A DNA stretch of 62,368 nt, from assembly GCF_000685315.1 (NCBI RefSeq), contig NZ_ARYM01000021.1, positions 1 through 62,368 on the forward strand, in the 5' to 3' direction. This document shows positions 465-39,003 of this stretch, piece after piece; position 1 is the stretch's first letter; every line of letters starts with the position of its first letter. Under the pieces are notes generated by a model. It searched no databases. It was given only the letters and a program-made list of their open reading frames with translations, and was not told the origin of the DNA. The translations under genes were made by a program, and so were the position numbers. The stretch is from Hyphomonas polymorpha PS728 (GTDB taxonomy: Bacteria; Pseudomonadota; Alphaproteobacteria; Caulobacterales; Hyphomonadaceae).

Positions 465-2231
465 TCATGCAACAGGCTGCGCGTCCAGCAGCTTCCTGTC
501 CTTCAGCCACAATGTACGCTCATGAAATTTCGCGACAGTCTGCCTGTGCGCCACGGATATGACGGTGGCGTCCGGCAGGCTTAACTTTATTGCCGCGTAG
601 GCGGCCTCTTCAAACTCCGTATCCAGCTGACTTGTTGCTTCATCGAGGACAATCACCCGCGGCCTGTGCAGCAGGATGCGCGCAAAGGACAGGCGCTGCA
701 CCTCTCCTCCGGAAAGTATCTGGAGCCAGTCCGTTTCCTTGCTGGACGCCGAGAGAAGATCTGTCAGCCCCGTCAGTTCAAGGACTTTTTCAATTTCGGC
801 TTCAGTTACCTCCAGGCTGAAATCTGGATAGACCAGCGCATCCCTCAGGCATCCCACCGGAACATAGGGCTTCTGCGGCACGAACATGACCGCATTCGAC
901 GCTAGGGAGACCCTTCCCTGCGCATGTGGCCACAGGGTGGCAATGGTTTTCAGAAGCATGGTCTTGCCTGAGCCAGAACGGCCGCTCACCAAAACCCATT
1001 CCCCCTCATTGACAACAAGATCTGCCTTGTCGAGGAGGACCTCGCCATCCGGACGAAAGATGCTGAGCGCTTCACATCTTATGGCGACCGGGGATTCTTC
1101 TGCCATACGCGTAACACCGCGGGGATACTTCCCGACAGACGCAACGGAGCGTTCAAATCCCGACAGGCGGTCGACCGTTGCCGCAAACGCAGCAAGCACG
1201 ACGTAATTGTCCACGATCCAGGACAGGTTCTCCACCACCTTGTTCAACGCATTTGCTGTCTGAAAAACTCCTCCCAGCGGTATGGCACCGGAAAAATAGG
1301 CCGGGGCAGCTATTATCAGTGGAAAGATCAGATTGGCCTGGGCCAGGCCGGTGACGGAAAAAGTCACCCGCTTGGTCACATTGATCATCTCAGCAAAATT
1401 CCCGGCGACGCGTCGGAACGTCGAGCCAAGACGCCGGTTTTCGCGGGCCTCCCCTCCGTGGAAGGCAATACCTTCTGCAAACTCCCGTACTCTGATCAGG
1501 GCGAACCGGAAATCCGCTTCAAGACGCTGCTGGTCAAAGCTGAGCCGTATGAGCCGCTGTCCCAGGAAATGCGTCAGCGCCGTGCCGGCTGTCGCATAGA
1601 GGATAGCGATCCAGACAAGGGAACCAGGAACCGGAGCTCCGAAGATGCTGACGTCTTCGGACAGTCCCCACAAAAGAACAATGAAGGAGAGCATCGAGAC
1701 CACATTGCGAAAGAGGCCGAACCCGAGTTCGAGCATTTTTGCAGTGTAGAGATTGATGTCTTCGCTGATACGCTGGTCGGGATTATCAAGCCCTTCGTCC
1801 CTCAATTCCAGAAGATAATATGTGTTTCCCGCCAGATAAGCATCTGTCAGCCGTTTCGTCATCCATATCCGCCAGCGAAGCTGCAGGCGCTGCTGAAGGT
1901 AAAGCGCATATACGGTGGCGAGGACATGGATGATCAGCAGCGGGGCGAAGCCTATTGTCAGCCCGCCTCCGGCATCGGAAGACCATGTCAGCAACAAGGA
2001 CAGGAATGTCGTCCAGTCCTTCTGCTCGAGCGCATTGAACAATCCACGCTGCCAGTAGGTGAAGAGAACGGCGACTCCGACCAGGATCAGGGTCAGCAGC
2101 AGAACGGAGACCAGCAGGGTCCACGCGGCGATACGCTCCTCGCTTTTGAAGTATGGCCGGGCCATTTCCAACCCCGCGCCAATCGACGCGATCGTCCCCC
2201 CTTCCTTCCTGGCCACGTCGCGTTCCCCCAT
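465..2231 (-). CDS. SbmA/BacA-like ABC transporter with fused ATPase (putative peptide exporter)
   Basis: This 588-residue protein joins an SbmA/BacA-type membrane domain (hydrophobic segments at about 35-60, 95-112, 175-190, 205-222 and 295-318) to an ABC ATPase. It shows Walker A GRSGSGKT (417-424), signature LSGGE (506-510) and Walker B VIVLDE (526-531). The layout is that of YddA-like and ABCD-type half transporters, which move peptides or lipidic substrates across the inner membrane as dimers. The start is supported by GGGGGAG a few bases upstream. It lies 33 bp behind the sulfotransferase on the same strand, so the two are probably one transcript. They diverge from the precursor gene, so export of the modified peptide is the natural inferred role. 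Uptake, or self-protection of the producer, is also possible. Confidence 0.85.
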   Translation of the reverse strand: MGERDVARKEGGTIASIGAGLEMARPYFKSEERIAAWTLLVSVLLLTLILVGVAVLFTYWQRGLFNALEQKDWTTFLSLLLTWSSDAGGGLTIGFAPLLIIHVLATVYALYLQQRLQLRWRIWMTKRLTDAYLAGNTYYLLELRDEGLDNPDQRISEDINLYTAKMLELGFGLFRNVVSMLSFIVLLWGLSEDVSIFGAPVPGSLVWIAILYATAGTALTHFLGQRLIRLSFDQQRLEADFRFALIRVREFAEGIAFHGGEARENRRLGSTFRRVAGNFAEMINVTKRVTFSVTGLAQANLIFPLIIAAPAYFSGAIPLGGVFQTANALNKVVENLSWIVDNYVVLAAFAATVDRLSGFERSVASVGKYPRGVTRMAEESPVAIRCEALSIFRPDGEVLLDKADLVVNEGEWVLVSGRSGSGKTMLLKTIATLWPHAQGRVSLASNAVMFVPQKPYVPVGCLRDALVYPDFSLEVTEAEIEKVLELTGLTDLLSASSKETDWLQILSGGEVQRLSFARILLHRPRVIVLDEATSQLDTEFEEAAYAAIKLSLPDATVISVAHRQTVAKFHERTLWLKDRKLLDAQPVA

Positions 2232-2264
2232 ATGCTCCCCCGCCCATACCCTTCGAGCAACGCT

Positions 2265-3335
2265 CTAGATCCGGCAGTATCCGAACCGGTTCTGAAATCC
2301 CCTGAACCTTTGCTGAATATCATCAGCAACGCGCTCGGGAAGTTCGCCCTGCCACGTGCCGCTTTGTCCCACCCTTGCATGCCCTGCGCTCAGACGTGCA
2401 GCAACAATGCTGTTGGCATCCTTCAGGGAGTCCCCGATCCTGGATATGGACATCCTGTCAATGCTCTGAAGGAGCGTCGCAGGATCGACACGGATCCTCC
2501 AGAAATTCAGAAGACGCATAAGGCATGCTGCTGGATCCGCCAGCATCTCCTCGTATCGCAGAATAGGGACTGCGCGGGCTGCCAGGTAGTTCACCCACCG
2601 CTCGAGATCTCCATGGTGGTACAGCGGGTTACCTTCGATCCGGCCAAGGAAATACTCGAAATAGAAAGTTGAGATGTCCGGGTAGCGCGCCGCCTCATAA
2701 CCGTTCTGCTCGTCGCTTCGGGTGGCCTCATGATACCAAGATACCACGACATCCCTCAAATCCCTGACGAGGGCCACACTCCCCGAACGACCGCAAGCGT
2801 GATAGGCGATCTCGATATCCGCGCAATGAACCTGATAGAGCTGCTGGTCCGTTGACAGGCCGAGAACATCGCCAAGCAGGGCCATGAGCCAGATGGACCC
2901 TGATTTGGGAAATCCGTTCACTATGAAACGTTCGGATGCCAGAATCTGCCCGGGTGATCGTACTGGCCGGGCATAATGGCCGTGGGATTCCTCAACCGGT
3001 CCGTACTTCAGAAGAGACAGCGGATAAAGCTCTCCGCCACGCCGCCTCGATGAAATCTCCCGCAAAAAGCGCTCACCATCGAGGACAAATATCCCGGATG
3101 CCGCATCAATGCAGGGCGCCGCCTCACCAGCGAAAACCAGAATGGCGTCACCAGGAAGAGGTGCTTGCTGCACGGCGGAGCCGGACAAATCCGGACTGTT
3201 GCCTGCTGTATGCGGAGGAAGCGTCACGGGCCCGGATGACATCCGGCCGATAGCGCCCTCATAGGCCAGTATAGAACGTATCTCCGCCAATGCCTCCGGC
3301 AGGACCTGGTCAGGCGCGACAACAAATAATCTCAT
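2265..3335 (-). CDS. PAPS-dependent sulfotransferase family protein
   Basis: This 356-residue protein has the two PAPS-binding signatures of cytosolic-type sulfotransferases. The 5'-phosphosulfate loop is FPKSGSIWL (142-150) and the 3'-phosphate motif is RDLRDVVVSWYH (191-202). Such enzymes move a sulfuryl group from PAPS to a hydroxyl or amine. The first 130 residues do not look like the standard fold and could be a substrate- or leader-binding extension. The start ATG is preceded by GGGGATGA. The gene is upstream of the SbmA-like transporter and divergent from the precursor-radical SAM genes. Sulfation of the peptide, perhaps on a hydroxyl made by the nearby oxygenase, is inference. Its acceptor could also be a carbohydrate or lipid. 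Confidence 0.85.
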   Translation of the reverse strand: MRLFVVAPDQVLPEALAEIRSILAYEGAIGRMSSGPVTLPPHTAGNSPDLSGSAVQQAPLPGDAILVFAGEAAPCIDAASGIFVLDGERFLREISSRRRGGELYPLSLLKYGPVEESHGHYARPVRSPGQILASERFIVNGFPKSGSIWLMALLGDVLGLSTDQQLYQVHCADIEIAYHACGRSGSVALVRDLRDVVVSWYHEATRSDEQNGYEAARYPDISTFYFEYFLGRIEGNPLYHHGDLERWVNYLAARAVPILRYEEMLADPAACLMRLLNFWRIRVDPATLLQSIDRMSISRIGDSLKDANSIVAARLSAGHARVGQSGTWQGELPERVADDIQQRFRGFQNRFGYCRI

Positions 3336-3508
3336 TCATCCCCATTCCGGTCAAACCGTCCAGTTTCCCTTCGAACAAGCACAAAGTCAGCCGCAGGAAA
3401 GATTCTGGCGGCCAAGTCAGCTTTCGATGTTGCAACCTCCCGTTTTTTTTGCAAGCTTTTCATCGGGGGAGACGGTTCCTCCGGAACGAATGTACTGAAG
3501 GGAAGACA
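3336..3508. promoter_or_regulatory. Divergent control region of the RiPP-like cluster
   Basis: This 173-bp gap separates the left-reading sulfotransferase-transporter pair from the right-reading precursor gene and must hold promoters for both. It contains a run of eight T at about 3443-3450 and a small hairpin GTTCC-tcc-GGAAC (3475-3487) just before the precursor ribosome site. A start-stop triplet pair (ATG TAC TGA, 3490-3498) lies just upstream of the precursor start. I cannot assign -35/-10 boxes with confidence. Confidence 0.4.
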
Positions 3509-3664
3509 ATGACAAAGTCCAATACCATGACATCCCGTCTGGAGCAGGCGCGCGCTGCTTTCGCAAAGGGCCAGCTTGAGGCCTACAAGCCTCTCGAAAC
3601 AACTGGTACTGATCATGTCCGCGCAACGGCAGCCGCCTCCTGGGGACCAGCGATGCGTCGCTAG
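3509..3664 (+). CDS. Putative RiPP precursor peptide, 51 residues
   Basis: A short frame begins with ATG at 3509 behind GAAGGGAAG and ends at TAG 3662-3664. It would be missed or fused to a spurious upstream frame by automatic callers. Residues 8-27 look like an amphipathic helical leader (TSRLEQARAAFAKGQLEAYK). The C-terminal part runs TTGTDHVR then ATAAASWGPAMRR. It has no cysteine and one Trp (W45). Other aromatic or His residues are F18, Y26 and H36, and the arginines include R38, R50 and R51. It is the first gene of a run leading to a radical SAM/SPASM enzyme and an arginase-like protein, so H36-V37-R38, W45 and the terminal Arg pair are the obvious candidate modification sites. I recognise no named precursor family. 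The call rests on size, position and composition. Confidence 0.7.
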   Translation: MTKSNTMTSRLEQARAAFAKGQLEAYKPLETTGTDHVRATAAASWGPAMRR

Positions 3665-3677
3665 TGGGTAAGGTGTC

Positions 3678-3710
3678 AGCGGGCCTAAACCGTGAGGGCG
3701 CCGGCCCGTT
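3678..3710 (+). terminator. Weak hairpin between precursor and radical SAM genes
   Basis: CGGGCC (3680-3685) pairs with GGCCCG (3703-3708) across a 17-base loop, with an extra A-T and a G-T pair outside. No T-run follows, so it is not a classical terminator. Its position after a precursor gene suggests partial attenuation or mRNA stabilisation, giving more precursor than enzyme. This is inference. Confidence 0.3.
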
Positions 3711-3772
3711 GATGTCTTCTCCGGATGAACCTCTTCAGCTGAAAGTGTCCCTTGGCGGAAGGCTTCATAGCA

Positions 3773-4990
3773 ATGGTAAATGACAAGGCCCTTGTTTCCG
3801 GGTTCGGTCCCATCGAGATGGTGGTTCTTCAGGGAACGTCCTACTGCAACCTCAACTGCTCTTACTGTTATCTGTCCGAAGAAAGCCGCCGGCACTCGGC
3901 GACCATGACGCTTGAGACGATACAAAGAGCCTTCGAGGAAGTTACATCGAGCCCCTTCACCGGAAGCAGGCTGAGAGTCAGCTGGCATTCGGGGGAACCT
4001 CTGGTCCTGAAACCGGATTATTACCGCGCAGCCATAGAGACAGTCCTGAACGTCAGAGACGGGTCCCCGAGGCCTGATCTGGTCATCGATTTTGACTTCC
4101 AGACGAATGCGACTCTGATCAATGCCGCGTGGATTGAATTCTTCAAGGAATATGAGGGTTTGGTGACACTCGGGGTGAGTTGTGACGGACCAGCTGAGCT
4201 TCATGACCGCCATCGGAAAAACTGGTCGGGCCGGTCGAGCCATGCCGCCACCGAGCGCGGCATGCAGGCACTCAGCGAAGCCGGTATACCGTTTGATGTC
4301 ACCGCCGTCATTTCTCCAGACGGGCTTGATGAGCCGGAACTCTTTCTGGCGTACTTCGAGCCCTTCGTTCCGTTTATCCGGGAGTTTCACTTCAATCTTC
4401 ATGACGAGCTCTTCATCGACACCCGGGACAGAGCAGGCGCATCTTCCTATGTGATGCGCTACAAGGCATTCCTCAGCCGCTTGCTGGATCTGATCGCTTC
4501 GGGAAACTACAAGACACCGAAAATACGCAACTTCGCCTCGTTCTATAATCGCCTCTTCGTTCCGGCGGCCGAGCGGCCGTCCTATGACGCGCGAAGCATG
4601 AGCGCTCCTTTTAAAACCGTAAGCATAGAGATGAATGGGGACCTCACGACCTTCTACGCCGGGCTCACGCTGGACGAATGTGGCGATCAGAAAAACCTCT
4701 ATGGGGATGGACGGGGTCTCGTGATCGGGAACATCCTCGAAAGTTCACTTTCAGAAATGGCCGGTTCGGAAAAGCTGAAGCTCATGATGCATGATTTTGA
4801 AACCAGTCACTCGGCCTGCGAGTCATCCTGCGACTATTTCGATGTCTGCTCAGGCGGTTACAATCTCATCAAGCTCAGACGTCACGGAACTTTCGGCGCC
4901 ACAGAAACTCCGGAATGCCTCGTACACGTCAAGGCTTTTGCCGACGCTGTGCTTGAACATATGTCCGGGTCCCTGCAAGCGGCCGGCTGA
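3773..4990 (+). CDS. Radical SAM/SPASM peptide-modifying enzyme
   Basis: This 405-residue protein has the radical SAM cluster motif C25-x3-C29-x2-C32 (CNLNCSYC). Its Cys-rich C-terminal SPASM region includes ACESSCDYFDVCSGGYN and HGTFGATETPEC. The CSGG...HGTF..TET..C pattern resembles the GrrM/XyeB/FxsB group, whose studied members make three-residue cyclophanes (aromatic side chain to a C-beta two residues on). It may therefore crosslink H36-V37-R38 or W45-G46-P47 of the upstream peptide, but the pairing is a guess. The chosen ATG has GGAAGG 10 bases upstream. A TTG at 3752 is the alternative. It follows the precursor by 108 bp and precedes the arginase-like gene by 51 bp, probably in one operon. 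Confidence 0.9.
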   Translation: MVNDKALVSGFGPIEMVVLQGTSYCNLNCSYCYLSEESRRHSATMTLETIQRAFEEVTSSPFTGSRLRVSWHSGEPLVLKPDYYRAAIETVLNVRDGSPRPDLVIDFDFQTNATLINAAWIEFFKEYEGLVTLGVSCDGPAELHDRHRKNWSGRSSHAATERGMQALSEAGIPFDVTAVISPDGLDEPELFLAYFEPFVPFIREFHFNLHDELFIDTRDRAGASSYVMRYKAFLSRLLDLIASGNYKTPKIRNFASFYNRLFVPAAERPSYDARSMSAPFKTVSIEMNGDLTTFYAGLTLDECGDQKNLYGDGRGLVIGNILESSLSEMAGSEKLKLMMHDFETSHSACESSCDYFDVCSGGYNLIKLRRHGTFGATETPECLVHVKAFADAVLEHMSGSLQAAG

Positions 4991-5041
4991 CCTATCGCGA
5001 CATGTAACAACACGGCGGAGCAAACCCTGACCGGACCCACG

Positions 5042-6052
5042 ATGTTCCCGCGCCCATACCTTGCGCTTGACAGATTGTCTGTCGACGGACTGACAGAAGA
5101 TGACGTACGGGAAAGTCTTCTCCCGCTGATCCGATCCAATCATTATACGGTCGACCAGGAGCGGGGTATCGTGAGGGTGGAGGGTCCGGACACAAGTTAT
5201 CATGAAATAGATCCTTTCCTTGATCAGGGACTTTCCTATTGCAGGATTGACAGGTCCAAGCAGGATCCGGCGGGCTTCCACATATCGACCCCCCTGTTCG
5301 ACGTTTGTCTCGAGGACAGCTGGTGCGGCTTTTTTCTCGCAGGCCGGATCGCGCATCTTCCTCCGGAGATGCCTCTAATCATTATCCACCTTGATGATCA
5401 TACCGACATGATGTCGACCCTGCTTCTCGCCGGGGAGCACCTGACCGACCCCTTCACGGGGGAACAGTTCTTCGCGGACAATCCACAATGCTGGCCCGGA
5501 GCGATCGCTTCAGGCGCTGTTGGTATCGGCAGCTTCCTGACACCGTTCTTTTCTCTGGCCCGGCGTCTTCACATCGCCCATCTGAGCGATGGGCCCGGAC
5601 ACGCAGGCCTATACAATGTAGAACCTTCAGTCATACGCCACCCCCTTCTGGAAAGCACAGGCTTTTTCGATATCAATCTTGATCCGAATGATGACAGATT
5701 CGTCAGTCTGAGGACGTACTCGAAGTCCGACGATCCGGTAAGACTGATTGAGGGGGCCAGCGCTGATCGTAGCACATATGTCGTGGTTCACATTGATCTG
5801 GACTACTTCATAAATGATTTCAACGGGAATCCGGCTCCGGATTCGTATCAGCCCAGCCCTGAACTCCAAACAGCAGCACTCGATAAAATGGATGCGTTCT
5901 TCGATGCCCTGAAGGGGCGGCGTGTAAATGTGGACCGATGGATGATCGCCACATCCCCTGGTTTCTGTTCCGGGTATCACTGGGAATTCCTGATTGAGGC
6001 CTTGAGCACTCGGATCCGTTCCTGCGCTCGCCCCCGATCAGGCCGGCGCTGA
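5042..6052 (+). CDS. UPF0489/arginase-fold protein, putative peptide arginase
   Basis: In this 336-residue protein, HLDDHTDM (116-123) supplies D118-x-H120-x-D122 and HIDLDYF (250-256) supplies D252-x-D254. These are the two metal-ligand motifs of the arginase/ureohydrolase fold. Overall it looks like the UPF0489 family, to which, as I recall, the peptide arginases of the OspR type belong. Those convert arginine residues in RiPP precursors to ornithine. Here it follows a radical SAM gene and a precursor with Arg at 38, 50 and 51, so the same reaction is inferred. No strong ribosome site precedes the ATG. Its 3' end overlaps the convergent 2OG oxygenase gene by 15 bp. A free-arginine enzyme is less likely given the context. 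Confidence 0.8.
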   Translation: MFPRPYLALDRLSVDGLTEDDVRESLLPLIRSNHYTVDQERGIVRVEGPDTSYHEIDPFLDQGLSYCRIDRSKQDPAGFHISTPLFDVCLEDSWCGFFLAGRIAHLPPEMPLIIIHLDDHTDMMSTLLLAGEHLTDPFTGEQFFADNPQCWPGAIASGAVGIGSFLTPFFSLARRLHIAHLSDGPGHAGLYNVEPSVIRHPLLESTGFFDINLDPNDDRFVSLRTYSKSDDPVRLIEGASADRSTYVVVHIDLDYFINDFNGNPAPDSYQPSPELQTAALDKMDAFFDALKGRRVNVDRWMIATSPGFCSGYHWEFLIEALSTRIRSCARPRSGRR

Positions 6053-6652
6053 GGTGAAACAAGCCGTCAGCATGAATATGTGTTCTCCTTCCGCGAGGCG
6101 GCGGCGGCCATGCAGGACCCGTGAACCAAAGCCCAGCATGATACCTCCCGCCGTCGTTGCAATCGTCTTCCTGGGAACCACTACTCCGCCCTCGTCTTGC
6201 CTGTACAGTGTGAGATGCAAACCCGATTCCCCGGGATCATTGCCAGGCGTTGTCGCATCCAGATAGAAAAGCAAGGTTACCTCGCAGTTTTCGACACCAT
6301 CCAGATGTGCTGCCAGAAAATCACCGGCTTCATAATAGGTGTAGCAACTTGCATTCCATGAGCAGGAAAACTTCCGCCCGAACAGGGGCTCAAGGATCTC
6401 CGATGACGCCGCGTTTTCAAGCAGCTCACGCCCTTTCATGCCGAGTGGTGCGAGGGACGAGCGATACTGAAGTTCCCCCTGCCCTTCGGCCCTGAGCGCG
6501 GAGTTTCGGGCATCAAGGCATTCATCCTTCAGTTCTCGGAGGAGCGACAAAGGTATTGAATCTGGAATGAACACGAAGCCGTCATTCTCCAGCAAAGAGA
6601 GCAGCGCGGCCGACCGTGTACGTTCGAAAAGCGTTGGATCAACTGTTGACAT
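6038..6652 (-). CDS. 2OG-Fe(II) dioxygenase family protein
   Basis: The 204-residue form starts at ATG 6652 behind GGGGGA; a longer in-frame start at 6754 would overlap the divergent GMC gene and lacks this signal. The jelly-roll core shows H116-x-D118 (AAHLDGVEN) and a distal candidate ligand H181 (SRVLHGRRRL), with VTLLFYLD typical of prolyl-hydroxylase-like members. Such enzymes hydroxylate or otherwise oxidise C-H bonds using 2-oxoglutarate and oxygen. It sits antisense inside the RiPP-like cluster, convergent with the arginase-like gene and divergent from the GMC gene. It could hydroxylate the peptide and so create a site for the sulfotransferase. That order is inference. Confidence 0.8.
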   Translation of the reverse strand: MSTVDPTLFERTRSAALLSLLENDGFVFIPDSIPLSLLRELKDECLDARNSALRAEGQGELQYRSSLAPLGMKGRELLENAASSEILEPLFGRKFSCSWNASCYTYYEAGDFLAAHLDGVENCEVTLLFYLDATTPGNDPGESGLHLTLYRQDEGGVVVPRKTIATTAGGIMLGFGSRVLHGRRRLAEGEHIFMLTACFTSAPA

Positions 6653-6742
6653 GTATACTCTCCCCCTGAACGCCTTGCGATACCTGCACGTCTCTTCTAC
6701 CAATATTAGAACAATACATCCTGCAGTGAGGCAAATGAAAAA

Positions 6743-8146
6743 ATGACCGCTCAAGGCGAGGCGTCTCCACGTGTTCAGGACCGGTACTGCGAGGTAGCGA
6801 TTGTCGGCGGTGGGCTGGCAGGTTCCGTTCTTGCCCGAGAAATCGCTGAAACCAAAGACGTGATTCTAATCGAGCGCGGCGGGCGCGAACAAGGCCCCGT
6901 CGACACGGCATGTGAAGAAGGCCAGGTCAGCGGCCTCGACTACCCGCTGGGACTTACACGAGACTTTCGGCTGGGAGGAGCCACTTCGATCTGGGCGGGA
7001 TACTGCGCCGAGTTTGACGCAGGCGATTTTGAGGAACGCCCCGGAATACCGCTCAGCGGCTGGCCCTTCGCAGCTGGGACACTTGCCCCCTTCAGGCAGC
7101 AAGCCGCAAGGATCATGAACCTTTCCGGCGTCAGTTTTGATCCGTCTGTTCTGCTGATGGACGCGAGGAACCCCTTACCATTCTGCCCCAAAGGTCTGGT
7201 TGCGACCAGCTGGCGTTTCGGCAAGCCGGTTCTCCGCCTTCTGGAACACTGGAACTGGGATCAGATTGAAGCGGGCGGGGCGCAACTGATGACTTCCACG
7301 CGTGTCCTGGAGGTCATCCCTGCTGCAGACAAGTCCGGAGTGGATCATCTGATATGCCTCGACGGGCATGGCCACCGGTTCAGGGTTTTCGCAGATACAT
7401 ATGTGCTTGCCGCGGGCGGGCTTGAAACCGCCCGCCTGTTATTGTCGTCAGACGCTCCAAATGGGGTAAGCAACAGCTCGGGGATGGTCGGGCGAGCTTT
7501 TTGCGAACATCCGCATTTCACCGCCGAAGAATTTGTCCTTGAACCTGACCACCCGATTGCCGCCTGGGCTGAACGGGGAACCGACCGGGCAGGTCATGAC
7601 TTCGCATTCTGCATGGGAGTACCGGACGAGCGTCGCGCAGAGTTGGGAATCCTCAATGCGCGGGCCCATGTGTTCCGTACACCGAAGATGGATATGAGTG
7701 AAACTCCGCGGCTGGGACTCTTCCTCGAGCAGGCGCCCGACAGGCAGAGCCGAGTCTCGCTTTCAAGCAAAAGGGATGCTGACGGCGTCCCGCTCCTGAA
7801 CCTTGAATGGTGCCTGTCGGAGCTTGATAAGCGCACAATTCACGAAACTTACGACTATGTTTCAGAGATGCTGGAGGCGGCGGGCGCCGGGCGGAGGGTC
7901 GGGCCGCTGAAGAAAGAAGATATAACTGCAGATCGTATCATGCATTCAAACCATCAGCTGGGGACAACGCGAATGAGCCGTGACCCCGCGTCGGGCGTAG
8001 TGGATGAAAACTGCCGCTCACACGAGCTTGACAATCTTTACATCATTGGAGGCAGCGTCTTTCCGACAGTCAGCTGGGCCAATCCAAGCTATACGCTTCT
8101 TCAGCTGACCCTGCGCCTAGCAGAACATCTGAAGCTGCAGCATTAA
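6743..8146 (+). CDS. GMC-family FAD-dependent oxidoreductase
   Basis: In this 467-residue protein an N-terminal Rossmann segment VAIVGGGLAGSVLA (about 18-31) followed by LIERGG binds FAD. The C-terminal GMC_oxred_C block contains HQLGTTRMS, LYIIGGSVFPT and ANPSYTLLQLTLRLA. The family oxidises alcohols to aldehydes or ketones. In this cluster a hydroxyl introduced by the 2OG enzyme, or a Ser or Thr of the peptide, is a possible target. It begins 90 bp from the divergent oxygenase and is followed after 23 bp by the VOC gene, so the two are likely cotranscribed. Its link with the peptide is by position only. Confidence 0.88.
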   Translation: MTAQGEASPRVQDRYCEVAIVGGGLAGSVLAREIAETKDVILIERGGREQGPVDTACEEGQVSGLDYPLGLTRDFRLGGATSIWAGYCAEFDAGDFEERPGIPLSGWPFAAGTLAPFRQQAARIMNLSGVSFDPSVLLMDARNPLPFCPKGLVATSWRFGKPVLRLLEHWNWDQIEAGGAQLMTSTRVLEVIPAADKSGVDHLICLDGHGHRFRVFADTYVLAAGGLETARLLLSSDAPNGVSNSSGMVGRAFCEHPHFTAEEFVLEPDHPIAAWAERGTDRAGHDFAFCMGVPDERRAELGILNARAHVFRTPKMDMSETPRLGLFLEQAPDRQSRVSLSSKRDADGVPLLNLEWCLSELDKRTIHETYDYVSEMLEAAGAGRRVGPLKKEDITADRIMHSNHQLGTTRMSRDPASGVVDENCRSHELDNLYIIGGSVFPTVSWANPSYTLLQLTLRLAEHLKLQH

Positions 8147-8169
8147 CCAGGAAATTCGGAGCGAGCCAC

Positions 8170-8649
8170 ATGACACAGGGTTATTCACACATCGGGATGT
8201 CAACACACGACATGGACGCAACGATAGCATTCTACACACGTGTGCTGGGTTTTGTTCGCGTGGCAGACCAGGTCACGTCAATCCGAGAAGGTGGGCAGAT
8301 CAGGCAGGTGTATTTTGATCTTGGCCGGGACGAATACCTCGTCTTCATGGAAGCCCGCGACATCGCAAGCATCCCGCAGGATTACCCGACCGGCATCAAC
8401 TCGGCCCTTGGGACGCCTGCGGGCATGTACCACCTGGCCTTCAAGGTCGACACGCTGGAAGCCCTGCAGGCAAAGCGCTCGGAGTTGCTCGGGGCCGGAG
8501 TGGATGTATCCGACTGCATCGACCTGGGGCACGCGCAGTCAATCTTTCTGGCGGACCCCAACGATCTCCAGATCGAGTTCTGCTGGCACAGCCGACCATT
8601 TCGACCGGAGGATCTCGACAGGAAAGACATCGCCAGTATCGCGGCATGA
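8170..8649 (+). CDS. VOC-superfamily (glyoxalase/dioxygenase-like) protein
   Basis: This 159-residue protein has paired beta-alpha-beta-beta-beta modules of the vicinal oxygen chelate fold. Likely metal ligands are H7 (YSHIGM), a His in GMYHLAF and the Glu of LQIEFCWH. VOC proteins include ring-cleaving dioxygenases, lyases, thiol transferases for antibiotic resistance and isomerases, so the reaction cannot be read from sequence. A GGAG lies about 10 bases before the ATG. It closes the right-reading arm of the cluster and could be a tailoring or self-resistance enzyme. Nothing in the sequence decides between them. Confidence 0.85.
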   Translation: MTQGYSHIGMSTHDMDATIAFYTRVLGFVRVADQVTSIREGGQIRQVYFDLGRDEYLVFMEARDIASIPQDYPTGINSALGTPAGMYHLAFKVDTLEALQAKRSELLGAGVDVSDCIDLGHAQSIFLADPNDLQIEFCWHSRPFRPEDLDRKDIASIAA

Positions 8650-8761: not shown

Positions 8762-11248
8762 TCATTCGAGCCGCCGCTGCAATGTTCCGGAAAAGGTGAT
8801 GATGGCGAGAGAGACAAGTATCCAGCCGGCTATGGAATAAGCTGCCTTGAAGTACTTCAGGGCGGCGACCTGGACATCGACACTCACGACCCCGAACACT
8901 TGAGGGAATGTCGCGAGGCGGGTTGCACCGTTTGCAGCTCCGACCCGGCATTGGGACTCCTGCCGAAAGTCAATCAGAGGCACAAATACGTCTATCGCAT
9001 AAATAATGGGGTCTATGTTGCGTCCGCACCAGATATTATCGACAATGTCAGTGGACGCCAGCGCTCCGATGCGTGTCTCGGAAACACTGGCTGCAACGGG
9101 CTGCTGATCAACCACGAGCAGTTTCTGGGTGTTCGCATACCAGAAGACCCCGGCTCCGAGGACAGCAGCGAAGAACAACGTCATCAATGCATTCACCGGC
9201 TTCAGTCCGTCTCCGAACAACCAGTGAAACAGTTGGGAGCATAGCAATATCGTTAGCCTCGGCAAACGGAGGCTGATCGCCCCGCGCTGTATCTCCGCGA
9301 ACTTTTGCCGACGGTCCCTGTTCTGCTTCTCGATGAACACATCTCTTGCCTCATCCACGCGGCCGTCGCGTGCGAGCATCCGGCTCAGCCACATATAGGG
9401 CTGGGGATCGTGCGCAGGCATCCGCGAAAGCCATTTAAGGCGGGCGCTAACGCAGGCAGCGGAATCCCCATTTAAAGGATTCATGCTAGGGTGCAGGAGA
9501 GCTTCATATCTGAAGCCGCTCAGATCAATGACTTCGCCGTCCCGGGCGTAACCGGTGGATGTATCACACAAGACCCTGACTTCCGCATGGGCGAGCCGGA
9601 TCGCTCCAGCGATATCATTTGCCTCTAAAACGAGGTTACCTTTCACGCTGGCCCATCCGAGGTCGAGGATAAACTCCCTGAGCGACGATTCTGAGGCAGG
9701 GTCGTCAGAACGCCTGCTCGCCTTGAACCTGTAGAGGCCCAAATCACCGTCGATACGTGCTCGCAGGAGGTTGACGTCCCCGCGAGTGAAAGCGCCTCGT
9801 CCGAACAGGAAGCTCTGACCGACATGCAGGTCCATCGCGTCGAGAGCGAGTGTCCTGTTCTCGCCGTCAGCACGTCTTCCAACGAACATGGCCGAATTCG
9901 CATCAAGATCACCGCGGATTCTGGCACCAGACAGCTTCACGGTACCGACGCAGCCAGCCGAATGGAGTTCCAGATTGCCTCCGACCGTCGCTTCTTCCAA
10001 ATCGACGGCAAGCTGCTTCTGTCCCAAAATCCGTGCGCCCCGCAGTAACAGATCGCCCCCTACATCGACCCTGCGCAGATGCAGGCCTCCGCGGGTGCGG
10101 CAGTTATCCGAAAGAATAAAATCATCCTCAATGCGGCACGCCTCTGCTGACAACGCACGCGCGTGTCCCTGAATTTTTGTTGGCTGGTTTGCATCAGATT
10201 CCAGAAGGGCGTTGCTGAGAATGACACTCCCGCGGACCCGGGCCAGATCGAGATTGAATTCGCCCTTGCAGGCGAACGAAGGAAAGCGTGCGTAAACCCC
10301 TCCGACATCGCACGACATCGCATCGAAAGCGCCCCCTTCTCCGGCGCGCAGCCGCGCACCACCGAGCCAGACCTCGCCCTTTACCACTGCCAGGTGCAGA
10401 TTTATCCCGCCATCGAACACGCTACCATCATTTGCCCTGACAGAGCCCATAATGATGGCACCCGCCAGTTTCAGAGCATAACGTGTATCGTGCGGCGGGA
10501 ATGTTCCCGGGGCCCTGAGAACGGGTGATCGAAGGACTGAATTGCGGGCAATCAGATCTCCTCCGATGCGAGCGTCCTTCATGTTGATCCAAAAATGAGT
10601 TTCCGGGTCATCATCCTGTCCGGCCGCATCATTGCATCTGGCACAGATCGTCTGTATAGGCACTATCTCTTCGGTATAGAGAGCTTCATCGGCCAGGAGA
10701 CGATCAAACTCTGCCTCGCCGTCGACTTTGTTGCCCGCCACGCCCCAATCGTGATCGCCATTGCTGGACATTGGCCCGGATCTGCTGACGTCCAAGGATC
10801 GAGCGATATCGGCGGCAATCGCCCGAAGCTCGGAGAGCCGGCAATTCACGAGGCTCACAGCCCTTATGCAGCAGTCCGAAACATCGACATCTGCATCGCA
10901 CGGATCGAGTCCTTCGCGGAGAAACTCACAATTCTCAAGCAGCAGGGGCGGGAGGCTGCGCCCCCCGTCACCTTGACACCCACTGAGGTCTATTCCCCCG
11001 ACGATCCTGCCATTGCGTATCCGGATACCCGATGACGCCTGAGAAGAAAGACAAGCGGCATCGTCGCCCGTACTGGGTTTATCCGGGGCCTGAATGTTCA
11101 GGAGCGCCTCGCGAATCAGGTTGCCGCTAAGCACGCCACATCCGGGGGGCTCGCTGGCCAGGTCCAGCCATTCTCCACGAGCCATGAACTCCCTTAGCCT
11201 GGCAAGCTGGCCCTGATGCGTTGGTTCATCGCTTGATCCGGCATTCAT
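8762..11248 (-). CDS. Beta-helix-like membrane protein with repeated L-x-x-A-x-I-x-G-x-L units
   Basis: About 828 residues. Residues roughly 60-600 are made of degenerate repeats such as LSGARIRGDLDA, LRRVDVGGDLLL and LARVRGSVILS, reminiscent of pentapeptide-repeat or right-handed beta-helix proteins. After a short helical stretch (MPAHDPQPYMWLSRMLARDGRVDEARDVF) come two membrane segments, ALMTLFFAAVLGAGVFWY and AGWILVSLAIITF, with DPIIYAIDVFVPLIDFRQES between them. Similar proteins are widely annotated only as membrane-associated or pentapeptide-repeat proteins of unknown function. It converges on the VOC gene across a 112-bp gap. A role as immunity factor, target or unrelated cargo cannot be decided. 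Confidence 0.75.
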   Translation of the reverse strand: MNAGSSDEPTHQGQLARLREFMARGEWLDLASEPPGCGVLSGNLIREALLNIQAPDKPSTGDDAACLSSQASSGIRIRNGRIVGGIDLSGCQGDGGRSLPPLLLENCEFLREGLDPCDADVDVSDCCIRAVSLVNCRLSELRAIAADIARSLDVSRSGPMSSNGDHDWGVAGNKVDGEAEFDRLLADEALYTEEIVPIQTICARCNDAAGQDDDPETHFWINMKDARIGGDLIARNSVLRSPVLRAPGTFPPHDTRYALKLAGAIIMGSVRANDGSVFDGGINLHLAVVKGEVWLGGARLRAGEGGAFDAMSCDVGGVYARFPSFACKGEFNLDLARVRGSVILSNALLESDANQPTKIQGHARALSAEACRIEDDFILSDNCRTRGGLHLRRVDVGGDLLLRGARILGQKQLAVDLEEATVGGNLELHSAGCVGTVKLSGARIRGDLDANSAMFVGRRADGENRTLALDAMDLHVGQSFLFGRGAFTRGDVNLLRARIDGDLGLYRFKASRRSDDPASESSLREFILDLGWASVKGNLVLEANDIAGAIRLAHAEVRVLCDTSTGYARDGEVIDLSGFRYEALLHPSMNPLNGDSAACVSARLKWLSRMPAHDPQPYMWLSRMLARDGRVDEARDVFIEKQNRDRRQKFAEIQRGAISLRLPRLTILLCSQLFHWLFGDGLKPVNALMTLFFAAVLGAGVFWYANTQKLLVVDQQPVAASVSETRIGALASTDIVDNIWCGRNIDPIIYAIDVFVPLIDFRQESQCRVGAANGATRLATFPQVFGVVSVDVQVAALKYFKAAYSIAGWILVSLAIITFSGTLQRRLE

Positions 11249-11553
11249 GGTGTGTCCCTTGGGTGTGGAAGGAGTATATTAGAAGGTCATCTGACGGGAC
11301 CCCGCAAGCCCCCGAAGCGTTTCTTTCGCGAGTTTCCGTTTCAGCAATTCATAGGGTCTGCTTCTTTCAAGTTTGCTGCAGGCAAAGGCTCAGGCTCCGA
11401 GTTCTGCATCTGTCCTTGCGACCGGCGCAGCGCGGCATTCCTGCTTTTGTATCTGGGAGGCAATTTCACAAACTTACTCAGCCCCCAGAGAACTGGATCG
11501 TTTCGGTTTAGAGTTTCCGGTATTCTGGAGCCAAGCTGGGAGGAGACAGAAGT

Positions 11554-11685
11554 ATGCGAGCATCGAAGTTCACGGACGCGCAGAAGGCGTTAATTATCAA
11601 GCAGGGTGACTCGGGGATTCCGGTGGCGGAGATCTGCCGCAAGGCAGGGATCAGCCAGGCAACACCGCGACGCAACAATCACTAG
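11554..11685 (+). pseudogene. IS3-family transposase OrfA, truncated
   Basis: ATG at 11554, behind GGAGG, opens MRASKFTDAQKALIIKQGDS, followed by VAEICRKAGISQAT, the helix-turn-helix of IS3-family OrfA. The frame breaks after 43 residues (PRRNNH then stop), where an intact OrfA would continue into its leucine zipper and OrfB. No OrfB follows, so this is the 5' stub of a deleted insertion sequence. Confidence 0.75.
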
Positions 11686-12357
11686 GCCGCGAAGGTTACA
11701 ACGCGCTGTACGGCTATTTTTCCGGTCACTACGGCTATGGCACAGTGCTCAAGAACTCGGCGCAAGACAAATGCCTCGCGGGGACCATGAGCCGCGCTTT
11801 GTTTGCAAAGTCTCTAAAAGACCTGCGCTGATAGTTAAGCCGGAACTCGAGTCACCGTCAAAGGATCGTGGGCGGCCCGAAAGGCCATGTCAGAATGGTC
11901 TCATCCTCCAGTGCAATCGGCAGCGCATCAAATTGCATCGGTCAAGATCGACGCCGCCCTATCGCGTACTTTAATATCCGTTGCGCCTGACCAAGCCCCG
12001 ATAATGCCTCCAGTCGATGCAAGGATCCGGCCTTCAAGAGAGGGGGCCGGATTCCATACCGATGACGCACCCGTAGCCGTTCGGTCCAGTCAATGCTTGG
12101 CGGCCAAATATTTGGCGAAAGCGAATGGCGCATTGGGGCCAAACCCAGTCCCACCGGCTATCCGATAATATCTGCCGATTGATGGTCCGCATCCGCTTCA
12201 TCGAGGCGCGGTGCTTCTTGTTGGCACTCCGCGCAGAGGCGAGTGTGCGTAGCGTACGGCAACCTGCTCAAGTGCCCACAACCCAAGGGTAATGACTTTC
12301 CCTCTATGATGGCACGCTTTCTGCATGGCCCTGCGCAGTCAGCAAAGGGAGCACGCC
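11686..12357. other. Gap without a recognisable gene
   Basis: This 670-bp stretch between the IS3 stub and the next gene holds only short, unconvincing frames on both strands. It probably represents several decayed mobile-element fragments. I could not assign any piece to a family. Confidence 0.4.
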
Positions 12358-13209
12358 ATGGCCGAGCCCGGTTCGCTTATGGATGCAAGCTGCATCCGCT
12401 TCGATGCCGCCAGCGAACTAATCGCGCAGCGCGATCCCGCAATCACGCGCCTTGCGGCCCTCGACCTGCTCGTCCGCGCCGTCTGGAATGGAGACTTCGA
12501 GCCGCCTCCGCTGTCATTGGACTGGCCTACCCCTGCACAGCACGAAGCCCGCGCTCATCCTGACGCCTGGATGTTCGTGCCGATCTCGGTACCCCGTGTC
12601 CTGCTGACCAAGGAACAGGCTGCGCTCTCGATCCGCCCCGTAGAGCTTTACAAGGCGGGACGCGATACAATCATCAATGTCATGCACTGCAACGGCCATC
12701 TGCCGGGCGACGCTGAAGGCTGGCACGCCTTGCTGGACTGGAAGGTCGAAGAGTCTGCGCGGCGACAGGCAGAAGCACTCTCAGCGCTCGCCCGGATTCC
12801 GGTGTCCGCCTATAGCGCAGAGGCCCGCGACTATCTTGCCAGTCTGATAATTCCCCGGGCAAAGCTGCAAGCCTGGCTCGATAGCTGCTCAGCGAACTTT
12901 CACGGCCTTTTTGTCCCTGCAGAGCGGGCAGCCCCTGCCCCGCCCGATGCTGCCAATGACACGGGCGAAGCGGCCACTAGCCATCGTCGCGGCCGCCCCG
13001 TGCTCGCGGCCTGGCCGAGGATCGAGGCGGCCGCCCACCAGATCAACCGGGAACATCCGGATCTGCCGCGCAAGGTCCTCGCGGGACAACTGCATGCGCT
13101 TGCCTTGAGCGAGTTTGACGAAGACGACGTCCCCAACGAGGCGACAATCCTGCGCCGGCTTGGAAGCATTCTGGGGGACGCAGGAGCTTCGTCCCAGAAC
13201 GAGGCCTGA
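12358..13209 (+). CDS. Hypothetical protein of a mobile-element module
   Basis: This 283-residue protein starts at ATG 12358, behind GGGAG. I recognise no family. It is soluble and acidic, with Ala-rich helices, VPRVLLTKEQAALSIRPVELY near residue 80, and a C-terminal basic-to-acidic segment RRGRPVLAAWPRIEAAAHQI that looks like a DNA-binding or linker tail. It precedes an AlpA-like regulator and mobilisation-type genes on the same strand, which suggests a control or accessory gene of an integrative element. Function unknown. Confidence 0.65.
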   Translation: MAEPGSLMDASCIRFDAASELIAQRDPAITRLAALDLLVRAVWNGDFEPPPLSLDWPTPAQHEARAHPDAWMFVPISVPRVLLTKEQAALSIRPVELYKAGRDTIINVMHCNGHLPGDAEGWHALLDWKVEESARRQAEALSALARIPVSAYSAEARDYLASLIIPRAKLQAWLDSCSANFHGLFVPAERAAPAPPDAANDTGEAATSHRRGRPVLAAWPRIEAAAHQINREHPDLPRKVLAGQLHALALSEFDEDDVPNEATILRRLGSILGDAGASSQNEA

Positions 13210-13364
13210 CAGGTCGCCGTCCTGCGCGCAGCGCAATTCTGCTGCAGCTCCGTCAGATCTGCGGGACCTTTCTGGGCTCTGCCGGAATAAGACGAAATCA
13301 TTCCTCTTTTTCGCCTACGGGCGCCGTGCTGGCCTTGGCTCACGCACACTGAGGAGGAAAGGCC

Positions 13365-13631
13365 TTGAGCAAGCACAATCACGATTTTCCGCCGCTCGAT
13401 GAGATCCTGAAGGACAATCCCGGCTGGCTCGATGAAGCGATCGACACCCCGGCCGTCTCCAGACTCACAGGTGTTCCGATCTGTACCCTTACGACCTGGC
13501 GCTGCCGTGGCGGCGGGCCGCGCTTCCTGAAATTCGGCAAGACGGTGCGCTACCGCCGCCGCGCCGTCCTCAGCTGGATGGCCGAGTGCGAAGCGCCGTA
13601 TACGGACCGCGATGGGGTGATCCATGGCTGA
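13365..13631 (+). CDS. AlpA/MerR-like helix-turn-helix protein (excisionase type)
   Basis: This 88-residue protein starts at TTG 13365, backed by GAGGAGGAAA. The core TPAVSRLTGVPICTLTTWRCRGGGPRFLKFGKTVRYRRRAVLSWM is the winged helix-turn-helix of AlpA/excisionase proteins. These regulate integrases or direct excision of genomic islands. It overlaps the next gene by 8 bp, which indicates translational coupling with the mobilisation-type genes. No integrase gene is adjacent. The nearest integrase remnants are at 31.8 and 36.5 kb. Confidence 0.85.
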   Translation: MSKHNHDFPPLDEILKDNPGWLDEAIDTPAVSRLTGVPICTLTTWRCRGGGPRFLKFGKTVRYRRRAVLSWMAECEAPYTDRDGVIHG

Positions 13632-13950
13632 ACCGACACAGCCCCTTTCGATCCGCCTCGCCACCAGCGACATCGACCACCTCACCGAACGCGCCCGGCG
13701 CATTTCCGGCACGCCGACCGGCGTTGCCCGCGAACTCATCCGCTCCGGCCTCTCCGACGGCGACCCGTTCGCACAGGCCGAGCGGCTGCTGAAAATCGAA
13801 CGAAAGCTCGCCTCTCTCGCGCAGGACATGCAGCTCGCCCTGAAGGCCTGTGATCAGACAACAGATAGTCTCGGCCGCCTCGAAACCATGTTCGACGCGC
13901 TGCTGCGCGCGCTCGGCGGCGAACCTCCGGAGGGAACGCCCCATGCCTAA
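13624..13950 (+). CDS. Small mobilisation-type (ribbon-helix-helix-like) protein
   Basis: The N-terminus of this 108-residue protein, PLSIRLATSDIDHLTERARRISGTPTGVARELIRSGL, has the strand-helix-helix pattern of CopG/MobC-type DNA-binding proteins. A heptad-like region follows (LLKIERKLASLAQDMQLAL). It overlaps both neighbours by 8 bp and is followed by a TraD-like ATPase, the order seen in mobilisation modules of alphaproteobacterial elements. A relaxosome accessory role is inferred from context. Confidence 0.65.
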   Translation: MAEPTQPLSIRLATSDIDHLTERARRISGTPTGVARELIRSGLSDGDPFAQAERLLKIERKLASLAQDMQLALKACDQTTDSLGRLETMFDALLRALGGEPPEGTPHA

Positions 13951-14707
13951 AGTCAAACACATCCTCGGCGCCCTGACTTTTGCATGCGCGGGCCTGACCT
14001 GGCTCTATCATTGGCAGGCTTTCGAGCGGTCACCGCCCGTCTACGTGGTCGAAGGCCAGCCCTACTATCTTCACCCGGGAAGTCTTGCGACCTGTACAAA
14101 AGCCGGAGCCTTTTCACTGCTCTGGGCCCCGGGCGCCCGCGAGGAATACCAAAGTTGCGAAGACTGGTTTCGGCAGAATGGCGTCTGGGACGACGTCCTT
14201 CAGCGCTGGCAGGTGCTCGGGGGCGGAGCGGCCCTGACCCTGATCCTGGCTGCCGGGTTTGCGCTGGCCATCAGGTTCGAACCGCCGCCGCCGAAGATCG
14301 TGCGCGGCCCGCGGCGTTTCACCGGCCAGAAGGCCCGCAGCGCCATCGGAAGGATCAGCCGACGCGAAGCGCGCCAGACTGGTGGGGGCATCACGTTCCC
14401 GCCGGGTATCGCGATGAGCCGCGACCGGGAATCCCGCCACATGCTGATCACCGGCGCGGTCGGGTCGGGCAAGACACAGACGATCCAGCATCTCATTCTC
14501 GAAGCGATGCAGTTCGGCGACAAGATGCTCGTGCTCGACACCAAGGGCGACATGACTGAGCGCCTGCCCGGCAAGATCACCCTCATCGCGCCGCAGGATG
14601 AGCAATTCAAACAGACGCCGATCGTGTTTCGTCTCGCGCGGCCAGGCAGGCCACATAGACACGCGGCCTCTCAGCCACAGGCAGTGCGCCATCCGGCGCG
14701 GTCGTGA
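13943..14707 (+). pseudogene. TraD/VirD4-like coupling ATPase, C-terminally truncated
   Basis: ATG 13943 starts a protein with two membrane segments (about 8-22 and 92-108) and a P-loop GAVGSGKT, followed by MLVLDTKGDMTERLPGKITLIAPQDE. This is the N-terminal part of type IV coupling proteins that feed DNA into conjugation channels. After that the sequence turns into low-complexity Arg, His and Pro, and the frame stops at about 254 residues. The Walker B and all-alpha domains are missing (the family is usually 500-700 residues). The gene was cut by a deletion or insertion near 14620. Confidence 0.75.
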
Positions 14708-15264
14708 TCGGGTCTGGCATTTTTCTCGCTCCTTCCCGCCCCGTTCCTCCGCGCATCAGGCGGGAGGGGGCGGCACAAGGCGCGCCGCCGGGGCGTACAA
14801 GGCGGGTGTGCACGGGGTCAGGTCGGACGATGCACAGGCTTCACACGGCTCTCCCCCGCCCCCCGTGCATACGCGCCGCGCCCCGGCAAAAGCGACGGGC
14901 CGTCTCCTCCCGCCGCACGCGGACACCCTCCGACGCTGCACACGCCCGGCGTCACCTCACGGCCGGACATACGCTGGCACGGCTCACCGACTGACGACGC
15001 CTCCCCACGCCCCTGCCAGACCGGATCGCACGGGCGACCCCCTTGGCCCTGCCAATGGGAAGCGTCCGTGCGGCGCCCCGCCGGCGAGCCCCCGCAGCGC
15101 GGCGGGCGCCGAACAGGCGCGCGCCACGACCGGAGACGAGCCGGGCCGAAGGGGCCGCCAACGGCGTCCCCATCGAACAGCCCCCTCGCCAGAGGGGCGG
15201 GGCGCAGAGGGATCTTAACTTGCGCGCAGCATACCTCTAAGTTGCCGGACTGATGGGGGCCCGA
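14708..15264. other. GC-rich gap without a gene beside the broken coupling gene
   Basis: About 550 bp of very GC-rich DNA with many short imperfect inverted repeats, for example around gtgtgcacgggg (about 14808) and ccccgtgcatac (about 14860). The open frames are Arg/Pro/Ala-rich and look like composition artefacts. A former transfer origin or relaxase region is possible by position, but I see no nick-site consensus. Confidence 0.35.
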
Positions 15265-15564
15265 ATGACACCGCAAGAATTCATCGATAAATGGCGCCGG
15301 GGGCAGCTGAAGGAGCGCACGGCGCCCCAGTCTCACTTCATAGATGTCTGCCGCCTGCTCGGGCTGGCAGACCCCGTGGCGGTCGACCCGGCGGGCGAAT
15401 GGTTCACGTTCGAAAGGGGCGCGTCCAAAGCGGCGGCGGCGAAGGCTGGGACCGACGTCTGGCGCAAAGACTGTTTTGCCTGGGAGTATAAGGGCAAGCG
15501 CAAGGACCTGGATCTTCTCCGCTTCGTCCCAGAAGCGACGTATCCGCTTGCCCGCCATCGATAG
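15265..15564 (+). pseudogene. N-terminal stub of an MmeI-like DNA methyltransferase/restriction enzyme
   Basis: ATG 15265 opens TPQEFIDKWRRGQLKERTA, then HFIDVCRLLG, GEWFTFERGASK and CFAWEYKGKRKDLD. This is the conserved N-terminal domain of the large MmeI-like or type IIG-related SAM-dependent DNA methyltransferases, normally 800-1000 residues. Here the frame ends after about 100 residues with no methylase motifs downstream. A deleted restriction-modification gene is the simplest reading. Confidence 0.65.
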
Positions 15565-15572
15565 ATCCGCCC

Positions 15573-15600
15573 TGGTGTCCACTGTCGATAGTGGGCACCA
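15573..15600. repeat. Imperfect inverted repeat near the end of the secretion operon
   Basis: TGGTG-t-CCACT, a six-base loop (gtcgat), then AGTGG-g-CACCA forms a 10-bp stem with one mismatch. It lies 139 bp past the 3' end of the HlyD-like gene and just after the restriction stub. It could be a terminator remnant, a mobile-element end or a protein site. No T-run supports termination. Confidence 0.4.
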
Positions 15601-15738
15601 TCACCCTCTATCGAACACACTAGCATGAATGGATCAGGAAGGGCCGCAAGGCCGGTCAGGCCGGACGCTTACCCTTTCGCCGAAGGTGGGCCTGTACCAG
15701 AGTGCAATCGCCCACGGCATAGACGGGCTGAAACGAAC

Positions 15739-19340: not shown

Positions 19341-19398
19341 ACCTGTCTATCAGAGTCTCTGAGGCCTGCCGGTTCACCCGTTCCGCCTGTCCGTGCCT

Positions 19399-19914: not shown

Positions 19915-19936
19915 TGGGGCCTCTTGAAATTCTGTC

Positions 19937-31872: not shown

Positions 31873-32011
31873 CCAGTCTTTCTGGAACTCCTCCCAGCCA
31901 GGTTCCAGGATACCGGAAACTCTAAGTCGGAATGATCCGGTTTGTCGGGGGCAGAGCACCTTCAGAGCGAGCCCTTTTTTCCGGCTGGTTCTTCAGCGCC
32001 GCGCACGATAC

Positions 32012-32036
32012 ATAATCTCACACTACAAGAATTACA
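32012..32036. promoter_or_regulatory. Inverted-repeat operator candidate before AbiEi
   Basis: ACACT and AGTGT arms flank an AT-rich centre (acactacaagaattacagtgt), about 20-40 bases before the AbiEi start. AbiEi-type antitoxins repress their own promoter by binding inverted repeats, so this is a reasonable operator. It resembles the ACACTAAC...GTTAGTGT pair before the related gene at 34.2 kb. Confidence 0.45.
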
Positions 32037-32055
32037 GTGTAAGGTTTTATATCAT

Positions 32056-38990: not shown

Positions 38991-39003
38991 GGTCCCGTTC
39001 CTC

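Follow-up and report, generated by a model that had tools for sequence, protein, structure and literature searches.

What molecule is made when a radical S-adenosylmethionine (radical SAM) enzyme, an arginase-like protein, a 2-oxoglutarate (2OG) oxygenase, a flavin oxidoreductase, a sulfotransferase and a transporter share a locus with one gene for a short peptide? This question is raised by Hyphomonas polymorpha PS728, of which we analysed positions 1-62,368 of contig NZ_ARYM01000021.1 (the window; all coordinates refer to it as a whole). An initial annotation had placed eight genes here and read them as the source of a ribosomally synthesized and post-translationally modified peptide (RiPP) with a SPASM-type crosslink and ornithine, and possibly with hydroxylation and sulfation. 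All eight lie where it had put them, and Pfam domains agree with its calls of a radical SAM enzyme, a fused ABC transporter, a GMC oxidoreductase, a VOC protein and a sulfotransferase of the type dependent on 3'-phosphoadenosine-5'-phosphosulfate (PAPS); two starts are revised, the radical SAM gene likely beginning at ATG 3773 and the 2OG gene at 6652, and the cluster has a ninth gene (8762-11248, minus strand). The proposed product is supported by a conserved precursor and co-occurring neighbours, its chemistry being a prediction: we consider it probable that the cluster turns a precursor ending in WGPAMRR into an exported RiPP that contains a crosslink and ornithine and is likely hydroxylated and sulfated. 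The main point beyond the initial annotation is that the C-terminal heptad of the precursor is near-invariant and that the presence of genes covaries with core residues.

Is the short frame at the centre of the cluster a gene at all? It encodes 51 amino acids (3509-3664, plus strand) with the C-terminus S-W-G-P-A-M-R-R; the codons of the predicted core heptad, W45-G46-P47-A48-M49-R50-R51, occupy 3641-3661 (plus strand), and the codon of Ser44, directly before core Trp45, occupies 3638-3640. Loci for comparison were chosen through the radical SAM enzyme, which has 278 database relatives at E 1e-30 and for which an alignment of 40 rows (A1) was built. A scan of a genome collection with A1 yielded the best 80 of at least 487 confirmed loci, so that the family loci number at least 11: eight close relatives (L001-L008, 41-70% radical SAM identity), the window, and two loci added from whole-genome searches, L083 (genome G1114, of the window's own family) and L096 (genome G1672). 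The remaining 72 loci (L009-L080, 38% identity or less, some of them short contigs) served as controls. The 11 are partly dependent, L005 and L096 being near copies and L006 and L008 belonging to the same genus. The motif was first read off short open reading frames (ORFs) upstream of the radical SAM gene in L001-L008, and an all-frame scan for C-terminal WGPxM[RK] was run only after it was known from these first eight loci. Such an ORF lies just upstream of the radical SAM gene, on the same strand, at all 11 family loci (two at L007) and at none of the 72 controls; tblastn alone detects the precursor at 4 of the 11. Among 12 precursors (66 pairs), the last seven residues share 93% mean identity and the leaders 32%, and codons differ synonymously between loci, including Ser TCN/AGC and Arg CGN/AGN. 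Because the frame has a counterpart at every family locus, it is not a chance ORF, a candidate explanation ruled out by this conservation together with the identity pattern of the heptad; the initial annotation had named lack of conservation of the frame in relatives as grounds for abandoning its reading, and the opposite was found. In other words, a short precursor with a leader and a conserved core lies beside modifying enzymes at 11 of 11 loci, as expected of a RiPP.

A database search with ten precursors (alignment A3) returned 56 proteins, all with W, G, P and M in place; position -4 is A in 52 and M in four, position -2 is R in 55 and K in one (P0294), and the final residue is R in 38, V in 14 and another in four. 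Ala precedes Trp in P0278, P0282, P0283, P0292 and P0293, and Gln in P0280. Since all of these proteins have exact 5-mers in common with the query, this invariance is partly by selection, a bias of which the 11 loci, picked via the radical SAM enzyme, are free. Two of the 56 stand apart: P0288 carries the SWGPAMR motif twice (SWGPAMRR...SWGPAMRI), which suggests a two-core variant, and P0294 (longest contig 128,106 bases) ends in SWGPMMKK, the only one with Lys for the conserved Arg.

Could the heptad instead be a follower, i.e. a recognition sequence, with the variable N-terminal part as the product? Conservation is usually higher in recognition sequences than in cores, and the contrast in identity between heptad and leader fits such a role. 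The leader, however, lacks Trp in all 12 locus-proven precursors and has no invariant Arg, which would leave the radical SAM enzyme, the arginase and the sulfotransferase without a common substrate residue; the residue beside Trp covaries with the sulfotransferase gene (see below); and the cores of GrrM/OscB-type and mycofactocin-type precursors are C-terminal. We therefore regard a follower as highly improbable and take the heptad to be the core.

What would be done to this core? The first step would fall to the GrrM/OscB-like radical SAM/SPASM maturase (3773-4990, plus strand; PF04055), the predicted crosslinking enzyme, which would bind the variable leader. Its sequences CNLNCSYC and CESSCDYFDVC...C contain the CxxxCxxC motif and the SPASM cysteines; C349, C353 and C382 are invariant and C25, C29, C32 and C359 at least 90% conserved in A1. 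Among the best 25 of 65 NCBIfam models, TIGR04261 (GrrM/OscB) comes first at 278.9 bits and AmcB second at 196.6, both being models of cyclophane formers. The earlier label 'GrrM-type' is thus right as to the nearest family, and the score falls under the curated cut-off of 310. In the nearest known systems, the triceptides (OscB/GrrM, XncB, MscB), a short leader and a C-terminal aromatic core recur as here. Passages of PMC11002830 describe a bond from Trp, at C6 for XncB and at C7 for OscB, to C-beta of residue i+2 (Arg, Asn or Asp); for related enzymes the aromatic partner is Phe, Tyr or His and the other residue Asn, Ser, Asp, Ala or Arg. The same rule would here give a Trp-Pro link, with the Trp ring likely bonded to C-beta of Pro. 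Since Trp is the sole aromatic residue of the heptad and never varies in the precursor sets, the crosslink likely starts there; its end point is less sure. A serious, if less probable, alternative is that the heptad receives another crosslink, such as Trp-Met or Trp-Arg, or that the enzyme performs a different reaction, and several observations pull in this direction. In addition to the missed cut-off, the tree sets the 11 family enzymes, together with 18 database rows, apart on a supported side of their own (96/93); anaerobic sulfatase maturases, which do other chemistry, are both the nearest solved relatives and among the next-best NCBIfam models; and Pro at i+2, a departure from the triceptides, is not named among the crosslinked residues in those passages of PMC11002830. 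Against this alternative stand the two top-ranked cyclophane models and the presence of Trp, as sole aromatic, in 56 of 56 precursors. The window also differs from the triceptides in its partners: arginase, sulfotransferase, GMC and VOC homologues occur at none of the 72 other radical SAM loci.

Natural gene swaps among the family loci offer residue-level assignments for two further enzymes. The PAPS-dependent sulfotransferase (2265-3335, minus strand; PF00685, Sulfotransfer_1), whose PKSG and RDxRD...SW motifs are invariant in all eight aligned sequences, is found at 9 of 11 loci (co-occurrence was scored by tblastn at E 1e-8, or E 1e-40 for SbmA). The residue before Trp is Ser at all nine of these and Ala or Gln at the two loci that lack the gene, L003 and L007; a search of both whole genomes with the sulfotransferase alignment found none, and the genomes of L004 and L006, used as positive controls, both matched. 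Because Ser tracks the gene across loci, the sulfotransferase is likely to act on Ser44, and sulfation of the Ser just before Trp is the simplest reading of the pattern. Some caution is due here: the association (Fisher p 0.018, 11 loci) comes from related rows with only two negatives, L003 and L007 are metagenome-assembled genomes (MAGs), in which absences are softer than in isolates, and the gene is not universal in the family.

The second assignment concerns the conserved Arg50, which the arginase-like protein (5042-6052, plus strand) is predicted to turn into ornithine. OspR is its best structural match, placing it in the ureohydrolase fold, and in 29 of 29 aligned sequences (alignment A2) the arginase signatures HxDxHxD and HxDLDY are kept, with D118-x-H120-x-D122 and D252-L-D254-Y255 invariant; these correspond to DXHXD and LDIDLDYF, the F after Y255 being variable. 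The earlier assignment to UPF0489-type peptide arginases is therefore borne out by fold and not by family model: the window protein has no Pfam match and misses the PF12640 gathering score, and PF12640 (UPF0489) is matched weakly by 16 of the 29, the window's excluded (best E 0.0019). Sequence searches of the PDB with this protein, single and profile, gave no lead, and in a PF12640 search of the window's own genome even the controls stayed silent. PHROGs yielded nothing either. As described in the introduction of PMC12703449, the known peptide arginases (OspR, FlmR, OhkR, PbsE; pfam12640) share DXHXD and IDLDY with the window protein and also carry an EEH(N/H)EAF motif, to which no stretch seen by eye in A2 corresponds; nor is WGPAMR(R/V) among the arginase precursor types listed there (NHLP, N11P, SCIFF, SCCRRSCN, DD(I/V)LF, MGXRRSSE). 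For the sixth metal ligand, H180 is a candidate. The arginase gene is present at 10 of 11 loci, and the exception, L003, retains the conserved Arg with no arginase in its 3.9-Mb assembly, a point against the main reading. Directly after its radical SAM gene, L003 carries a TauD-family oxygenase. The models closest to this protein, all scoring below cut-off, are clavaminate synthase, an enduracididine hydroxylase and the VioC arginine hydroxylase; among its solved relatives are clavaminate synthases and hydroxylases of Asn, Lys and Arg. Either route, arginase or TauD-family oxygenase, may thus serve to modify the conserved Arg. The two swaps, sulfotransferase with Ser44 and arginase with an amino-acid-hydroxylase-like enzyme, give assignments that can be tested before the chemistry is known, and the cluster offers enzymology two starting points, a divergent peptide arginase resembling OspR and a candidate peptide sulfotransferase.

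What of the remaining oxidative enzymes? The 2OG-Fe(II)-type oxygenase (6038-6652, minus strand), a predicted hydroxylase, is the one partner found at 11 of 11 loci; of the earlier claim the metal site holds, H116, D118, H181 and R183 (HxD...H.R) being invariant in 10 of 10 aligned sequences including the window's, and the Pfam match (PF13640, E 0.0036) is weak and below cut-off. The GMC flavin oxidoreductase (6743-8146, plus strand; PF05199, PF00732) and the VOC-superfamily protein (8170-8649, plus strand; PF00903, Glyoxalase) occur at the same 8 of 11 loci, both absent from L003, L004 and L007 and hence, like the sulfotransferase, not universal; H404 and N447 of the former and H7, H88 and E136 of the latter are invariant in seven of seven aligned sequences. 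(The sulfotransferase, 2OG, VOC and GMC alignments omit L096, and the 2OG start of L083 is trimmed.) The conserved residues of these four enzymes, of the radical SAM enzyme and of the arginase we take to be catalytic, and with these motifs intact in the family alignments, the cluster enzymes look active. The 2OG enzyme would likely hydroxylate the core, and the GMC/VOC pair would oxidise or rearrange a hydroxylated position.

Alternatively, the GMC/VOC pair could use or recycle the product, which would then be a peptide-derived cofactor, signal or metal carrier, much as MftG uses or recycles mycofactocin rather than building it. The mycofactocin system (MftC/MftG) likewise combines a radical SAM/SPASM enzyme with a GMC protein, its precursor core is near-invariant and C-terminal, and MftG is the best NCBIfam model for the window's GMC enzyme; moreover, the core here is near-invariant in distant hosts, and of the main enzymes, GMC and VOC are the two that family loci most often lack. 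The MftG score, however, is 70.7 bits against a cut-off of 387.45, which rules out a known mycofactocin-type system and places the enzyme outside the MftG class; no other mft model was found among the best 25 NCBIfam models for each cluster protein, and the nearest solved GMC relatives are sugar dehydrogenases, namely bacterial glucose/fructose dehydrogenases. An ABC exporter and sulfation suit a secreted molecule better, and the host range is sporadic. We judge a cofactor-like product to be rather unlikely and favour a secreted, tailored RiPP.

Are all of these genes truly part of one system? The minimal cluster of L003, which holds only the precursor, the radical SAM enzyme, the TauD-family oxygenase and the 2OG enzyme, and that of L007, which lacks sulfotransferase, GMC and VOC, might suggest an ordinary two-enzyme radical SAM RiPP, with GMC, VOC, sulfotransferase and the 828-residue product of the ninth gene (at 5 of 11 loci, the window among them; partial in L083) as bystanders. 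Such counts, 8-9 of 11 for the first three and 5 of 11 for the last, are set against 0 of 72 controls for each co-occurring gene and arise in differing orders and strands; this is not chance, and bystanders are a very remote prospect. In the window, the transporter, sulfotransferase and 2OG genes lie on the minus strand and the precursor, radical SAM, arginase-like, GMC and VOC genes on the plus strand, the 2OG gene being convergent with the arginase-like gene. Because order and strand vary among the family loci, the cluster is not one block inherited unchanged. Some family loci end at contig ends, where absences are soft. The initial annotation had also held that its reading would fall if homologous radical SAM genes lacked these neighbours, and the neighbours do accompany them.

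Is there precedent for such a combination? The biphenomycin pathway (pbs; described here after passages of PMC12257519 that include the abstract) combines a hydroxylase and a C-C crosslink made by a radical SAM enzyme with a peptide arginase that converts Arg to ornithine next to aromatic residues, and has a short conserved core motif, and by analogy may serve as a precedent for arginase, hydroxylase and radical SAM enzyme acting jointly on a short conserved motif. In pbs, ortho-tyrosines are the work of a multinuclear iron enzyme and the biaryl link that of a B12-dependent radical SAM enzyme (PMC12257519), whereas the window has a SPASM enzyme plus sulfotransferase, GMC and VOC, and the Pfam matches of its nine cluster proteins include no multinuclear iron (MNIO) or B12-binding domain. 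In the enteropeptins (kgr), an arginase acts on a peptide already carrying another modification; that arginase, KgrD, belongs to pfam00491 and the thiomorpholine derives from Cys (PMC12703449, introduction), a residue that the window core lacks. The earlier statement that no product with this gene set has been described agrees with searches of the open-licence literature, which listed no title or abstract start describing this cluster family; a paywalled report could exist.

How would the product leave the cell, and to what end? A protease would release the core; none was recognised in the window cluster, a gap in the proposed pathway, and the L004 and L007 clusters contain, at these 2 of 11 loci, an M42 aminopeptidase and a beta-lactamase-like PF00144 hydrolase, which could do so there. 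The SbmA/BacA-like fused ABC transporter, permease plus ATPase (465-2231, minus strand; PF06472, ABC_membrane_2; PF05992, SbmA_BacA; PF00005, ABC_tran), would export the core; it favours export, though this kind of transporter is nearby at only 4 of 11 loci (L001, L083, L007 and the window), which tempers the case. That the core is fixed suggests a single conserved molecule, aimed at a single conserved target or put to a single use. Because the core is near-fixed in distant hosts, it argues for a constant partner, be it a conserved target, as for a darobactin-like antibiotic, or a role as cofactor, signal or metal carrier. We offer as a tentative conjecture, more doubtful than the general reading, that scattered alpha- and gammaproteobacteria make one molecule from Ser-Trp-Gly-Pro-Ala-Met-Arg, with a Trp-Pro C-beta bond, ornithine (hydroxy-arginine in L003) and a sulfated Ser. 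If true, this RiPP family would combine sulfation of a peptidyl serine with a Trp-Pro cyclophane and be held constant for one function rather than for an arms race, and a single heptapeptide would undergo cyclophane formation, hydroxylation, sulfation, flavin oxidation and the conversion of Arg to ornithine; the near-invariant core makes the role of the molecule a direct question.

Other hosts include Henriciella, Halomonas, Roseospira, Novosphingobium, two Paracoccus, Oricola and a gammaproteobacterial MAG; Paracoccus maritimus YLB-12 and Halomonas sp. ML-15 are culturable carriers. At E 1e-90, the radical SAM enzyme matched 1 of 385 genomes of the class and 1 of 398 of the phylum (the window's own genome both times); at E 1e-80, it matched 2 of 398 of the order (the window's genome and G1114). 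At the same threshold, the order to which the Halomonas locus belongs gave 1 match in 244 genomes, the genus of the Paracoccus locus 2 in 125 and the family that includes the Novosphingobium locus 2 in 249; for L003 and L007, the respective families gave 1 in 3 and 1 in 66. Outside the searches of the window's lineage, known loci explain every match except G1672. Because the hosts are scattered and positives few per search, horizontal spread and loss are suggested. A lineage-wide housekeeping set is excluded by the one or two positives per 125-398 genomes in six of these searches, query genomes included, and a plasmid-borne family by tblastn of the radical SAM enzyme against 72,556 plasmid records, with no match at E 1e-60.

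The window itself holds a 213-bp direct repeat (1-210 and 36773-36985, 94% identical). The stretch between the copies is mostly of lower GC (0.57-0.58, with 0.63 at 11250-15700) than the DNA to the right (0.62) and contains a type IV coupling-protein-like frame (13850-14707) and, by eye, a transposase-like frame near 11554; it is perhaps an old mobile island carrying the cluster. The 828-residue protein of the ninth gene shows, by eye, beta-helix-like repeats and a hydrophobic C-terminal part; two of its relatives match Pentapeptide_3 below cut-off, and at L001, L005 and L096 its gene is flanked by cluster genes. In L083 (13750-15245), the C-terminal piece occurs alone, beside what looks by eye like a transposase frame. 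A further protein of ~300-330 residues (protein X; L083, 12696-13685, plus strand), with homologues in L004, L005, L096, L006 and L008, is thus found at 6 of 11 loci and not in the window; those of these proteins that were tested match no Pfam or NCBIfam model; it has the invariant stretches HADEYYG, PHxSxD and RLxxLMR (five sequences compared), and is perhaps a second iron oxygenase. Elsewhere in the window, type I secretion genes (15739-29104, minus strand; HlyD-like, and ABC with a C39 domain) adjoin a 3055-residue protein with RTX-like glycine/aspartate repeats by eye, and an AbiEii/AbiEi toxin-antitoxin pair (38076-39651, minus strand) is accompanied by a separate AbiEi-like gene at 31942-32673 (plus strand).

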